From Hyphomicrobiales bacterium (GTDB lineage Bacteria > Pseudomonadota > Alphaproteobacteria > Rhizobiales > JACESI01), in contig JBDWKL010000019.1 of assembly GCA_039973685.1 (NCBI GenBank), positions 1 to 64,000 on the forward strand: DNA of 64,000 bases, in the 5' to 3' direction. Of this stretch, positions 13,890 to 42,845 are shown one piece after another. A program made the translations under genes and the position numbers. Each line of letters begins with the position of its first letter. Positions within the stretch are counted from its first letter, which is position 1. The notes beneath the pieces were generated by a model. That model had not been told where the DNA came from. It searched no databases and saw nothing but the letters and a program-made list of their open reading frames with translations.

Positions 13890-15041
13890 TCAGCCCGCTG
13901 GCTCGATCCCAAACTCTGCTAAAATCTCATCCGTATGCTCACCCAATGCAGGCGCGGGGCGTCTGATTGATGCAGGTGTTTTGGAGAAATTCGCAGGGTG
14001 CTTTGCTTGGCGCAGCATACCGGCGGTTGGATGAAGCGTTTCCACAACAATGCCGTTTGCTTCAACCTGCGGGTGGCTGCGCATTTGTGTTCGCGATAGC
14101 ACAGGACCATTCGGCACATTCTCAGCATCAAGAGCGGCAATAAGATCTGCTGATGCAAACCCAACCACCGCATCCTGGATGGCATTTAAACGTGCATCTT
14201 TGTTGAGTTCACGAAGTTCTGGCGTGGCAAAGCGTTCATCTTCCAGCAGGTCAGGACGGTTCACGGCCTTGGTGAAGCCTTGCCATTGTTTGTCCTGCAT
14301 AACGGCAATACTCACAAAGCCGTCTTTTACCTCGTAGATCAAATCAATATAGGATTGAGCCTCTTCGCGCTCCAATTCGTCACCCACAAAGGTGTGACCG
14401 TTCATGTCCGAACTCCATAGGAACGCGATGATAACATCAAGCATTGAGATTTGAATGTGCTGGCCTTCGCCTGATCGCTCACGCGCAAATAAAGCGGCGG
14501 CGATGGCTTGGCTTGTTTGTATGCCTGTCAGCTTATCTGGCAATATCGTGCGAACAAGGCGAGGGCGGTCTTCGTCTGATCCTGCTTGCACAGAGGTCAA
14601 GGCTGAGATTGCTTGGATGAGCGGATCATAGACAGGTTTTTGGGCAAGCGGCCCTGTATGACCGAAGCCTGCAATCGACACGTAAATTAAACGTGGATTG
14701 AGTTTTGAAAGAGCTTCATAACCCAGCCCTAACCGCTCAGCGACACCCGGTCTGAAATTTTGAATGAAGACATCTGATTGGGCTGCCATGGTTTTCATGG
14801 CCTCAATGCCGTGCTCAGATTTTAGGTCTAAGGTTATCGAGCGCTTGTTGCGATTGTTATTGAGGAAAGAGGCTGAATAGCCCGCGCGCCGTGTTGCCAC
14901 ATGCCGCGAAAAATCGCCACCATTTGGGATTTCGACCTTGATGATGTCTGCCCCTTGATCGCCTAGCGTCATTGTTGCGAGCGGACCAGAAATCACCGTT
15001 GTTAAGTCGATTACGCGGATACCAGCGAAAGGGGCGGTCAT
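13890..15041 (-). CDS. CaiB/BaiF-type (family III) CoA transferase
   Basis: A 383-residue family III CoA transferase that moves CoA between acyl groups in the cytoplasm. The N-terminal FAGIRVIDLTTVISGPLATM and the segment ADIIKVEIPNGGDFSRH are family hallmarks. NRNKRSITLDLKSEHG and DVFIQNFRPGVAERLGLGYE follow in the expected order; the conserved Asp of the family should lie in the YDPLIQAISALT region. The ATG at 15041 has GGAG nearby and starts the domain; a TTG at 15053 is unlikely. The acyl substrate is unknown. It lies downstream of the Tat-exported metallo-hydrolase on the same strand with a 135-base gap. Confidence 0.9.
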   Translation of the reverse strand: MTAPFAGIRVIDLTTVISGPLATMTLGDQGADIIKVEIPNGGDFSRHVATRRAGYSASFLNNNRNKRSITLDLKSEHGIEAMKTMAAQSDVFIQNFRPGVAERLGLGYEALSKLNPRLIYVSIAGFGHTGPLAQKPVYDPLIQAISALTSVQAGSDEDRPRLVRTILPDKLTGIQTSQAIAAALFARERSGEGQHIQISMLDVIIAFLWSSDMNGHTFVGDELEREEAQSYIDLIYEVKDGFVSIAVMQDKQWQGFTKAVNRPDLLEDERFATPELRELNKDARLNAIQDAVVGFASADLIAALDAENVPNGPVLSRTQMRSHPQVEANGIVVETLHPTAGMLRQAKHPANFSKTPASIRRPAPALGEHTDEILAEFGIEPAG

Positions 15042-39590: not shown

Positions 39591-39695
39591 GGCTGTGTCC
39601 GCTGCATCCATGTTCCGTAAACCGCTCTTTGCTATCCTTGTTGTCAGATGATTCGCCCCGCACACGGCGAATGACCGACGGAGCATGTGAACTGT

Positions 39696-40415
39696 ATGGC
39701 GAAGAAGCCGAAAATTGCTGAAACCGATCTCTACCAGCCCGTGAAGACGTTGCTGGAAGGGCAGGGTTATGAGGTTAAAGGCGAAGTGGCTGCTGCTGAT
39801 ATCGTTGCGATACGAGGCGAAGAAGATCCGATTATTGTTGAGTTGAAAACAGCTTTCTCGCTCACACTCTTTCACCAAGCGATCGAGCGCCAAAGTCTTT
39901 CTGACCATGTTTATATCGCGGTCCCGCGTGGCACGAACAAAGCTTATTTGAAGAGTTTAAAGCGCAACAAAACGTTGTGCCGACGGCTTGGTCTTGGCTT
40001 GATGACCGTGCGGTTGAAAGATGGTTTTGTTGAAACCCATCTTGATCCCGAACCCTATAAGCCGCGCCCTTCGAAGGTCAAAAAAGGGCGCTTACTGCGA
40101 GAGTTTTCACGCCGTGTGGGTGATCCCAACAAAGGCGGCGCTGCTCGAACAACCATTATGACAGCTTACCGTCAAGATGCGCTTCGATGTTTGGGGGCTT
40201 TGGATCAAAACGGTCCAACGAAAGCAGCCGAGGTTGCCAAAATGACCGCTGTTGAGACGGCGCGGCGTATTATGGCTGATGATCATTATGGTTGGTTTGA
40301 GCGGGTAGATCGTGGTGTTTATGCACTCACGCCAAAGGGCAAAGAAGCTGTTAAAACCTATGCTTCAGATTTGACCGAGCTAACAAGGGCAATTGCACAA
40401 GCGCCTGCTGCCTAG
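39696..40415 (+). CDS. DUF2161-family PD-(D/E)XK nuclease-like protein
   Basis: A 239-residue protein with a restriction-nuclease-like core: ADIVAIRGEEDPIIVELK (about 35-52) gives the D-x12-E-x-K pattern of PD-(D/E)XK enzymes. A winged-helix-like C-terminal part (about 150-225, ALRCLGALDQNGPTKAAEVA, then KMTAVETARRIMADDHYGWF) could bind DNA. Family function is unknown. The ATG at 39696 is preferred; an in-frame GTG at 39687 would add three residues. The stop overlaps the stop of the convergent reductase-like gene (CTAG). Confidence 0.78.
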   Translation: MAKKPKIAETDLYQPVKTLLEGQGYEVKGEVAAADIVAIRGEEDPIIVELKTAFSLTLFHQAIERQSLSDHVYIAVPRGTNKAYLKSLKRNKTLCRRLGLGLMTVRLKDGFVETHLDPEPYKPRPSKVKKGRLLREFSRRVGDPNKGGAARTTIMTAYRQDALRCLGALDQNGPTKAAEVAKMTAVETARRIMADDHYGWFERVDRGVYALTPKGKEAVKTYASDLTELTRAIAQAPAA

Positions 40416-41290
40416 CGAACAGATTTGGCGGCTTGTTTACCTGCATCAAATGCCGCTCGCTTTTGGGCAAGCTCTTCTGGGCTCAATTTTTCTGGATTAG
40501 AATAATCCTCTTTCCAAGTATGGTCGCGAGACCAGACTTGTGAATTGTTCACGGTTCCAGGGCTGGTTGCTTGATCTAGCAAGTTTAAAGCAAGCGCTAA
40601 GGTTTCTTTTTGAGACGCTTCATCGTGCGGTTTGCCCGCGCCATTGCCGAGCGGAAAATCAGAGAAAACAAATCGTGGTGCGCCCGCACTTTCAACAATA
40701 TCTTTCGCGCAACCCATCACCACAGTCGGCATGCCTGCTTCTTCCAGATACCGAGCTGCAAGCGTTGCGCTTTGATGGCAAACTGGGCAGTTGGGAACGA
40801 TAATTGCGGCGTCTGCTTGATCACGCTTGAGCGCCTCAAGCAGGAGTACCGCATCGTCTTCAATTGTTGCTCGTTGTGATCGGTTTGTTGGTAGGCCGTG
40901 AAAATGCTTTGTGACCCCACCAATCAAACCATCGTTCGCCGCTTGCTTTAAAGTATTCAAAGGTAGCCAAGCTTGTTCGTCTGTTGCAGGGCTGTGCTTG
41001 CGGTCATAGGCAATATGAGAGATGCCTGTTTTAGGCGCATCTTCAACAGGAGCTAGGTACGGCGTATAAAATTTTGCGCCACCATTATAAGGAGCGTTCG
41101 GGCCTTGATCCCCTTTTGCAGGATCAAAAAGAGCGGCTGTCGTTACCAGTGCAACCTTGGTTTTTGACAATGGTTTTTGTAATCGCGTGAATGGGATGTC
41201 GGAATTTTTCGCCCATACATACGGCGCGTCATAGCCGAGCGCTAAATAATAGGCGCGGGTGCGATCAATATACCGAAGTGGATCTGTCAT
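40412..41290 (-). CDS. Glycine/D-proline-reductase B-like protein with Cys instead of Sec
   Basis: A 292-residue protein resembling the selenoprotein B subunits of glycine, sarcosine, betaine and D-proline reductases. Signs are VALVTTAALFDPAKGDQGP, SHIAYDR, the region GLIGGVTKHFHGLP and IIVPNCPVCHQSATLAARYL. The last contains C168-P-V-C171, where clostridial enzymes have the Sec-containing site; the codon at 168 is TGC. Conserved DFPLGNGAGKP follows. True reductases need proteins A and C, which are not in the window, so the function in an aerobic alphaproteobacterium is unknown; a thiol-redox role is possible. The stop overlaps that of the DUF2161 gene. Confidence 0.75.
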   Translation of the reverse strand: MTDPLRYIDRTRAYYLALGYDAPYVWAKNSDIPFTRLQKPLSKTKVALVTTAALFDPAKGDQGPNAPYNGGAKFYTPYLAPVEDAPKTGISHIAYDRKHSPATDEQAWLPLNTLKQAANDGLIGGVTKHFHGLPTNRSQRATIEDDAVLLLEALKRDQADAAIIVPNCPVCHQSATLAARYLEEAGMPTVVMGCAKDIVESAGAPRFVFSDFPLGNGAGKPHDEASQKETLALALNLLDQATSPGTVNNSQVWSRDHTWKEDYSNPEKLSPEELAQKRAAFDAGKQAAKSVR

Positions 41291-41327: not shown

Positions 41328-42845
41328 TTATCTTGGCTTGTATAAATTATCAGAAAAATTGCCAAGCGCTTTCATGCGCGGGCGATAGATGCAACCATCA
41401 ATCACTTCTAACCGTCCAACGCGGTTGAGGGTGTGGATTTTACGCCCTGGCCATTCTGGTCCACCAGGTTGAATAACCGTATCGATGCGTTGGTCAAAGC
41501 CTTCGTCATCTAACTGCGTCACCTCAGCCAATCCTAATGCGGCACCATAGCCTGCTTCACAATCTTGAACAGGCCGCCAAAGTTTGTCGTTTTTAATCAC
41601 CATATTGCCTGCAGGGCGGGCAGATTTATGGTCGATCAAAACGGGGTTTTGTGGGTGTGCTGTCCATGGGCCAAGCGGGTTGTCTGCTTTATAAATGCAT
41701 AGGGTATCTGAATATCCGCCAAGCCCTTCGCGCTCAACAACAAACATCCACCATGCTCCGTTGAACTCAATAATCGTAGCATCCGCAGCTTCAAGCCCGC
41801 TCAACAACGTTTCGTGCCGTTCCCATTTTAGCGGAAAGTCCGTTGCACGGTAAACCGCGACATCGTTGTTGTTTGAACTTTCAGGGATCATCCAAATATC
41901 ACCCTGCCATTTGAACATGAAGGGATAGGATAAATGCCACGGTTCTTCCAACACAGGCTCAGTTGGCCCCGGATTGCCGTTTTCATCAAAGCGGATAACG
42001 GCCAAAGTGCCTTTGCCGACATGATGATCGAGCATTTCAAAAAACAAGTAATCACGACCCTCATGATTGAATAAAACAGGGTCAGCATAAAAGTGATTGT
42101 AAGGGTGATCGATAAGTTGCCACGGTGCCCCAGTAAGGTTCTTATTCTCTAAAACACCATTGCCATCAATAAACCGATAGCCAATGCGCCAATGGCCAGA
42201 ATAGCAACACAGCTGATAGATTTCACGAATGATGTAGTTCGCGACATTTTTAGCAAGGTGCTTTGAATGGTGAATAGAGGACAAAGGGGTGAAATATTGA
42301 AACGGCGTGATCGTCGTTTCATCTTCTAAGCCTTGCAAAACACGTTTTAGCAACATGATAAATCGTGAATAAACGGCTTCCAATGCCCCGCTCAACCCTT
42401 GTGCAGCTTCGAGTGAGGGCGTGCCGCTTGCAATGGTTTTATGGTTCGTCAAATCATCAATTGTCATCAATGGTGCGCCTTTGGAAAGGAGCAAGCCTGC
42501 AAGCGCGGGCTCACCTCGTGTTCCATCATAGGAAGGAGCAAGAACGCGGGTGTTGTTATCTGGTACGAACGGGCGAGATGTAAGATCGATGATCAGGTCA
42601 GGCTTGGTTTTGCCTGCAAGCTCAAGACCGAGTTCACGCAGCGTCCGTCTTTCGCAACTGTTTTCTCGGTTACGAAACACGATCATTTTTTCAAGCGTCA
42701 AGAGCGTTTGTAGCCCAGAGCGCTTTTCGGCGCGTGGCGCAATGTGGAGATAGAGCGAATGATCGCCCATGCTGTGAATAGCGCGGACGAGGTGTTTCAA
42801 CCAATCGCGCAACTGATGGCCTTCGAGGCGAATATGGATGATCAT
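41328..42845 (-). CDS. Glucosamine-inositolphosphorylceramide-transferase-like protein
   Basis: A 505-residue protein. The N-terminal half (about 1-170) looks like a Rossmann-type formyltransferase-like domain (PDLIIDLTSRP). The C-terminal half (about 215-500) is a beta-propeller of the type found in glucosamine inositolphosphorylceramide transferases: HPYNHFYADPVLFNHEGRDY, FFEMLDHHVGKGTLAVIRFD, IWMIPESSNNN, and repeated WWMFVVE-like strands. It is likely to modify or transfer sugars in polysaccharide synthesis (inference). It is coupled to the upstream GT4 gene by ATGA overlap. Confidence 0.72.
   Translation of the reverse strand: MIIHIRLEGHQLRDWLKHLVRAIHSMGDHSLYLHIAPRAEKRSGLQTLLTLEKMIVFRNRENSCERRTLRELGLELAGKTKPDLIIDLTSRPFVPDNNTRVLAPSYDGTRGEPALAGLLLSKGAPLMTIDDLTNHKTIASGTPSLEAAQGLSGALEAVYSRFIMLLKRVLQGLEDETTITPFQYFTPLSSIHHSKHLAKNVANYIIREIYQLCCYSGHWRIGYRFIDGNGVLENKNLTGAPWQLIDHPYNHFYADPVLFNHEGRDYLFFEMLDHHVGKGTLAVIRFDENGNPGPTEPVLEEPWHLSYPFMFKWQGDIWMIPESSNNNDVAVYRATDFPLKWERHETLLSGLEAADATIIEFNGAWWMFVVEREGLGGYSDTLCIYKADNPLGPWTAHPQNPVLIDHKSARPAGNMVIKNDKLWRPVQDCEAGYGAALGLAEVTQLDDEGFDQRIDTVIQPGGPEWPGRKIHTLNRVGRLEVIDGCIYRPRMKALGNFSDNLYKPR

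Follow-up and report, generated by a model that had tools for sequence, protein, structure and literature searches.

The window analysed here, a stretch of 64,000 nucleotides from a Hyphomicrobiales genome, encodes a Cys-containing relative of PrdB, the selenoprotein subunit of the D-proline reductase with which fermenting anaerobes convert D-proline to 5-aminovalerate. In the clostridial enzyme the substrate is held by the pyruvoyl group of PrdA, which binds the amine; GrdB, GrdF and GrdH are the corresponding selenocysteine (Sec) subunits of glycine, sarcosine and betaine reductase. Comparison of the window protein with its relatives revealed that Sec and Cys replace one another at the active-site position within its own subfamily, that in some relatives the gene is linked to one for a family III CoA-transferase, and that the pyruvoyl-subunit family was found in none of 50 genomes. 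Our reading, put forward tentatively and with less than even confidence, is that the window protein is a free-standing (seleno)thiol reductive-cleavage enzyme of a PrdB-like family in Proteobacteria, oxygen-respiring ones among them, and that the linked branch of this family uses CoA activation in place of a pyruvoyl group.

The gene occupies positions 40412-41290 on the minus strand and, from the list of open reading frames, encodes 292 residues from an ATG start. Its assignment by profile scans and alignment upholds the preliminary description, which had called it a cysteine homologue of selenoprotein B. The PrdB model TIGR04483 matched the window protein with 85.5 bits (E 3.6e-24), short of the model cut-off of 300, versus 422.4 bits for the annotated PrdB in locus L128. 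Matches to the GrdH, GrdF and GrdB models were weaker (E 5e-11 to 2e-8), and the Pfam GRDB family PF07355 scored 21.5 bits against a gathering cut-off of 22, with a Sec-containing sister (L182) at 22.5 bits. The likeness to clostridial glycine and D-proline reductase B proteins noted beforehand thus holds for the B family, with PrdB and not GrdB as the nearest member. Codon 168 is TGC (40787-40789, read from 40789 to 40787 on the minus strand) and occupies the aligned position at which four annotated PrdB proteins, encoded on plasmids from Terrisporobacter, Peptoclostridium, Ligilactobacillus and Enterococcus, carry Sec in the motif UGTCHR; codons 171-172, for Cys-His, lie at 40775-40780 on the same strand, C171 being read as TGC from 40780 to 40778. 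Reading these codons against PrdB confirmed the C168-P-V-C171 site, with TGC at the Sec position, that had been pointed out earlier. Over 73 rows including the four annotated PrdB, D104, P110, C/U168, H172, E183, R206, P213, G215 and G219 are invariant; H172 is invariant in annotated PrdB too and C171 almost so, and both the U/C-x-x-C-H site of PrdB and its surrounding invariant residues are present in the window protein. A chance resemblance to B proteins is ruled out by the E value of 3.6e-24 together with the aligned invariant residues. The gene is present as a single copy in its genome, where the sole other match had an E value of 0.11.

An AlphaFold2 model built from 68 rows (mean pLDDT 96.7, pTM 0.93) predicts an alpha/beta protein in which C168 lies between a strand (161-165) and a helix (169-184). 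No solved relative was credible by sequence, and a fold search returned nothing at E 0.001 or lower; a likeness to the LacI core (best VIA-align Z 9.2, 144 aligned, 4.1 A) was taken as ordinary alpha/beta resemblance.

Relatives of the window protein are patchily distributed. At E 1e-5 it matched 13 of 199 genomes of the order, and at E 1e-20 it matched 16 of 398 in a sample of the phylum, while the PrdB profile at E 1e-5 found 36 of 289 genomes of the class, none above its cut-off and with up to six places per genome; two alphaproteobacterial genomes (G384 and G477) carry six PrdB-like places each, with in-frame TGA. In species genomes 542 relatives were confirmed by a scan, and the best 80 of them were kept for analysis; their record titles point chiefly to Bradyrhizobium, Afipia, Acetobacteraceae and further Alphaproteobacteria, besides some Gammaproteobacteria and a single Betaproteobacterium. 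We extracted 159 family proteins, including the four annotated PrdB, with repeats between two genome collections only partly removed, and sorted them by score and motif into groups whose boundaries are our own: A (109 loci), A2 (10), B (6), C (6) and D (24, of about 400 residues). Group A is the subfamily of the window protein, whose own row stands outside the 109.

All 109 group A loci have the motif [CU]P[VI]CHQ, as CPVCHQ in 94, UPVCHQ in 13, CPICHQ in one and CPVCHQ in the shortened L187. One of the six patterns used in the 80-loci scan held this motif, which biases those loci towards it; the loci from the order-wide protein search and the class-wide PrdB profile search carry no such bias. 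L187 (G268:C321) has one in-frame TAG and may be a broken gene or an assembly error. Across the groups the first motif position is always U or C: A2 has eight U and two C, B five and one, D 22 and two, and C five UPLDHQ and one CPLDHQ, so that the second Cys is Asp in all six group C loci. The preliminary description had made its assignment depend on conservation of the CxxC; this holds throughout the subfamily, and the motif is lost only outside it, in the paralogous group C. Several neighbourhoods of the family are worth recording. Genes that by eye resemble luciferase-like monooxygenases lie near four of the six group C loci (L135, L137, L139 and L146; the others are L133 and L134). Among the 22 Sec-type loci of group D, a UPxCTR selenoprotein of about 400 residues, ten have selA within about 11 kb on the same contig (L148, L155, L190, L153, L176, L166, L165, L152, L147 and L144), and a selB-like gene and a gene resembling a selD fusion, both recognised by eye, recur nearby. 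A Roseomonas plasmid copy (L126) is convergent with selO, and a Haematobacter plasmid copy (L127) adjoins a cobalamin cluster.

TGA stands at the codon 168 site in 13 of the 109 group A loci, and these Sec forms look genuine. A five-pair SECIS-like hairpin at bases 15-29 from the TGA was found in 12 of the 13 Sec loci versus two of the 96 Cys loci, and in none of the 13 when its register was slid by 1-3 bases. Likewise, among 50 genomes SelA was detected in 27 of the 29 with TGA forms versus none of the 21 without; the two exceptions are G209, which is 77% complete, and G460, which is 100% complete. At least four hairpin pairs are kept in 34 of the 96 Cys loci, a count confounded by the conserved peptide encoded there. 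A vestigial SECIS in the window gene was rejected, with just two of five pairs in the aligned register, and the window genome gave no match to SelA.

The phylogeny of Cys and Sec forms that had been suggested beforehand places both inside the subfamily of the window protein. In a quick maximum-likelihood tree of 74 rows, from which L187, group D and near-duplicates were left out and in which 33 of 71 inner branches are weak, the window row falls inside group A (96), together with three rows labelled Neomegalonema (SH-aLRT 99). The fewest Sec/Cys changes on this tree are nine over all rows and five over the 51 group A rows. Cys predominates in group A and Sec in the outer groups, and the tree does not settle the direction of change. 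The window gene and the copy of the same genus in G043 stand apart on the tree, but a single clade was not rejected (p-AU 0.205), and a separate origin of the two was not retained. As the residue can be Sec or Cys within one subfamily, and even within one gene pair, residue 168 is probably the catalytic nucleophile.

The subunits with which PrdB and the Grd proteins work appear to be missing. PF09338, the PrdA/GrdE-type pyruvoyl subunit, was found in none of 50 genomes, comprising the window genome and 49 others with and without the PrdB-like family; the same search was positive in four of four prd/grd plasmid records, and the scan was positive in two such proteins alone. Genome-wide searches of the window genome detected neither GrdA nor a PrdC equivalog, the best PrdC-model match reaching 53 bits versus a cut-off of 490; weak matches of this kind also occur in control genomes such as that of E. 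coli. The absence of partner proteins A and C, which had been noticed in the window, thus extends to the genome. With these subunits missing, the reaction of the clostridial complex is unlikely as such for the window protein, and the earlier suggestion of a different thiol-based reaction or a still-unknown pathway pointed in the right direction; the lead, a CoA-transferase, lies in related loci and not at the window copy. The genome also contains a COX1 match of 537.8 bits. This supports the preliminary view of the host as a probable aerobe to the extent that it denotes a capacity for oxygen respiration; obligate aerobiosis is not implied.

When the neighbours of the Sec loci were read, a family III CoA-transferase gene (PF02515, 394 bits) was noticed directly downstream. 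Its nearest NCBIfam models are the succinate-glutarate, oxalate, formyl and mesaconate CoA-transferases, all matched below their cut-offs. Counted with a profile made from 11 of the noticed genes themselves, the CoA-transferase lies at most 250 bases away in 29 of the 159 loci. In 25 of the 109 group A loci it is directly downstream on the same strand at -3 to 181 bases, comprising nine of 13 Sec loci and 16 of 96 Cys loci; the other 80 Cys loci have none in that position. The remaining four near loci are one in group A on the opposite strand, and one in A2 and two in D with the gene upstream. Within the pieces examined it occurs farther off in just five more loci, two of which are the same gene viewed from a second family member. 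Of eight new group A genomes in the phylum sample, four carry it (L198, L200, L201 and L204, and not L197, L199, L202 or L205). On the tree, this trait requires at least five changes over the 51 group A rows.

The linkage was also examined from the side of the CoA-transferase, in 385 class genomes that included several already used in its discovery. Orthologues scored at least 635 bits, with the next match at 490, and were found in 11 genomes. A PrdB-like gene, Sec-containing in nine cases and Cys-containing in one, lies upstream on the same strand of ten of the 11, with 22-212 bases between the profile matches; beside the eleventh (L216) there is none within the 2.6 kb examined. Among 20 lower-scoring matches listed, 19 paralogues were checked and none had a PrdB-like gene upstream. 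We recognised no mention of this pairing in the titles and abstracts that our searches of open-licence papers listed.

The window copy itself has no adjacent CoA-transferase, and the partner orthologue is absent from its genome, whose seven family III matches reach at best 294 bits versus about 750 for two orthologues. One family III CoA-transferase lies within the window at 13896-15041 on the minus strand, about 25 kb away (283.7 bits), and is not an orthologue of the partner. Downstream, the gene converges with a 4-base overlap on a DUF2161 gene (39687-40415, plus strand; putative PD-(D/E)XK), apparently outside the system; 37 bases upstream, a gene at 41328-42845 on the minus strand was assigned by profile scan to a GINT1_N-type glycosyltransferase-like protein and is probably unrelated. 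A look for conserved neighbours, as proposed beforehand, found none around the window copy: neither DUF2161, nor a metallo-beta-lactamase-fold protein, nor the polysaccharide genes recur around other members, and a function read from them was discarded. Genes for short-chain dehydrogenases are also found repeatedly close to the family, but in either orientation and at no fixed distance, and were taken as background.

From the homology, the conserved residues, the exchange of Sec and Cys, the lack of the pyruvoyl family and the gene linkage in relatives, all of them observed, we infer a course of reaction whose every chemical step is conditional. C168, which is Sec in relatives, would open a helix that follows a beta strand and lie close in the chain to the invariant H172, with D104, E183 and R206 invariant too. 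It would attack a carboxylic substrate, either at a polarised bond located on the alpha carbon or beside it, or at the heteroatom that leaves. The adduct would be resolved by C171 or by a thiol from outside the protein, which would release the reduced product and leave a disulfide or selenenylsulfide for recycling by a donor of the glutaredoxin or thioredoxin type. In the branch with the conserved neighbour, the dedicated family III CoA-transferase would convert the carboxylate to its CoA thioester, in place of the PrdA pyruvoyl group. According to the part of a review available to us, the scheme proposed for D-proline reductase requires that an alpha carbon be attacked and a selenoether be cleaved although neither is activated (PMC10298544); activation as a CoA thioester should ease both, and the linked CoA-transferase would be expected to supply it. 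The CoA-transferase could also act on a product rather than on the substrate. As the window copy lacks the partner gene, only the family-level part of this reading carries over to it. A bolder version, which we consider rather unlikely, is a pyruvoyl-free B-protein branch in aerobes that would cleave alpha C-N, C-S or C-halogen bonds of CoA-activated acids, the CoA thioester standing in for the pyruvoyl imine, and Cys and Sec replacing each other repeatedly within one gene pair.

CxxC and UxxC are classical redox motifs, and the window protein might instead be a general thiol-disulfide or peroxide reductase whose CxxC pair acts on disulfides, sulfoxides or peroxides, the CoA-transferase being incidental. 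The Sargasso Sea authors, in the sections available, place PrdB among the thiol-dependent redox selenoproteins (PMC1088965); a glutaredoxin-like ORF lies 31 bases downstream of one Sec relative (L150, group A2; a single case), and a peroxiredoxin-like gene was seen by eye upstream of L167. We nevertheless regard this as fairly improbable, given that group C lacks the second Cys in all six loci, that several non-Cys residues are invariant and that the CoA-transferase link is reciprocal and specific; the best structural matches of the predicted alpha/beta fold are not thioredoxins, which excludes nothing alone. Judged by sequence, the Asp of group C is easier to reconcile with a nucleophile that relies on an external thiol than with a simple CxxC disulfide reductase.

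Homology to PrdB and GrdB and the conserved active-site positions would also suit a true amino-acid reductase whose substrate is D-proline, betaine, sarcosine or a similar compound and whose carbonyl partner has escaped recognition. The lack of PF09338 in the window genome and the 49 others, the lack of GrdA and of a PrdC equivalog in the former, and a score of 85.5 bits against an equivalog cut-off of 300 make this very unlikely. Distinctly unlikely, too, is a thiol-dependent reductive dehalogenase or thioether lyase acting without CoA on free haloacids or conjugates. In its favour are the standalone, patchy gene, found in 13 of the order's 199 genomes, and a precedent in FarB, a GrdB-like protein without a CxxC or a pyruvoyl partner that is proposed, in the text available, to cleave C-F bonds (PMC10838667); yet no dehalogenation genes recur around the family, and the CoA-transferase is left unexplained. 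For the (seleno)thiol reductive-cleavage enzyme that we tentatively propose, the partner gene, the missing pyruvoyl subunit and the Sec/Cys exchange together provide a concrete test of what PrdB-like proteins do in oxygen-respiring cells, and the exchange within one gene pair offers natural enzyme pairs for asking what selenium adds.

Compared with PrdB as defined by TIGR04483, the window protein belongs to the same family by profile and has in common with it the aligned Sec/Cys, the His and seven further invariant positions. It differs in its 23-28% identity to the four annotated PrdB, in being about 50 residues longer, in having Cys and not Sec, and in a genome with COX1 and without PrdA or a PrdC equivalog. 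To GrdB, GrdF and GrdH (PF07355) it is homologous in their C-terminal half and has the U/CxxC site, but the N-terminal half of these models is unmatched and its genome lacks GrdE and GrdA. Two plasmid-borne members of the subfamily bear the RefSeq name 'Glycine/sarcosine/betaine reductase selenoprotein B family protein', which carries no function. FarB of Synergistota resembles it as a B-type protein whose partner is said to form no pyruvoyl group; unlike the window protein, it is a Sec-containing protein without CxxC, from an anaerobe and with an E-type partner (PMC10838667, in the part available). FarB and FarE are described there as GrdB- and GrdE-like, without CxxC and without pyruvoyl formation, and breaking the C-F bond in fluoroacetate is the role proposed for them. 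PrdB-like proteins of ocean surface bacteria, in Sec and Cys forms, have been in print since 2005-2008 (PMC1088965, PMC2398784), are among the most abundant selenoproteins in ocean surveys and number 235 Sec and 110 Cys in the GOS survey (PMC2398784). The sections of the Sargasso Sea and GOS papers available to us give the proline reductase pathway and no other. Their proteins share with the window protein the UxxC/CxxC site and the PrdB assignment, and come from ocean surface samples; the comparison is by description and not by alignment, and either group A or the group D proteins of about 400 residues could be meant (PMC1088965, PMC2398784). As both forms were already in print, a Cys form is in itself nothing new. 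The present analysis adds the occurrence of Sec and Cys forms within the window protein's own subfamily with at least five exchanges on the tree, the absence of the pyruvoyl family from all 50 genomes, and the reciprocal linkage of part of the subfamily, Sec and Cys alike, to a CoA-transferase.
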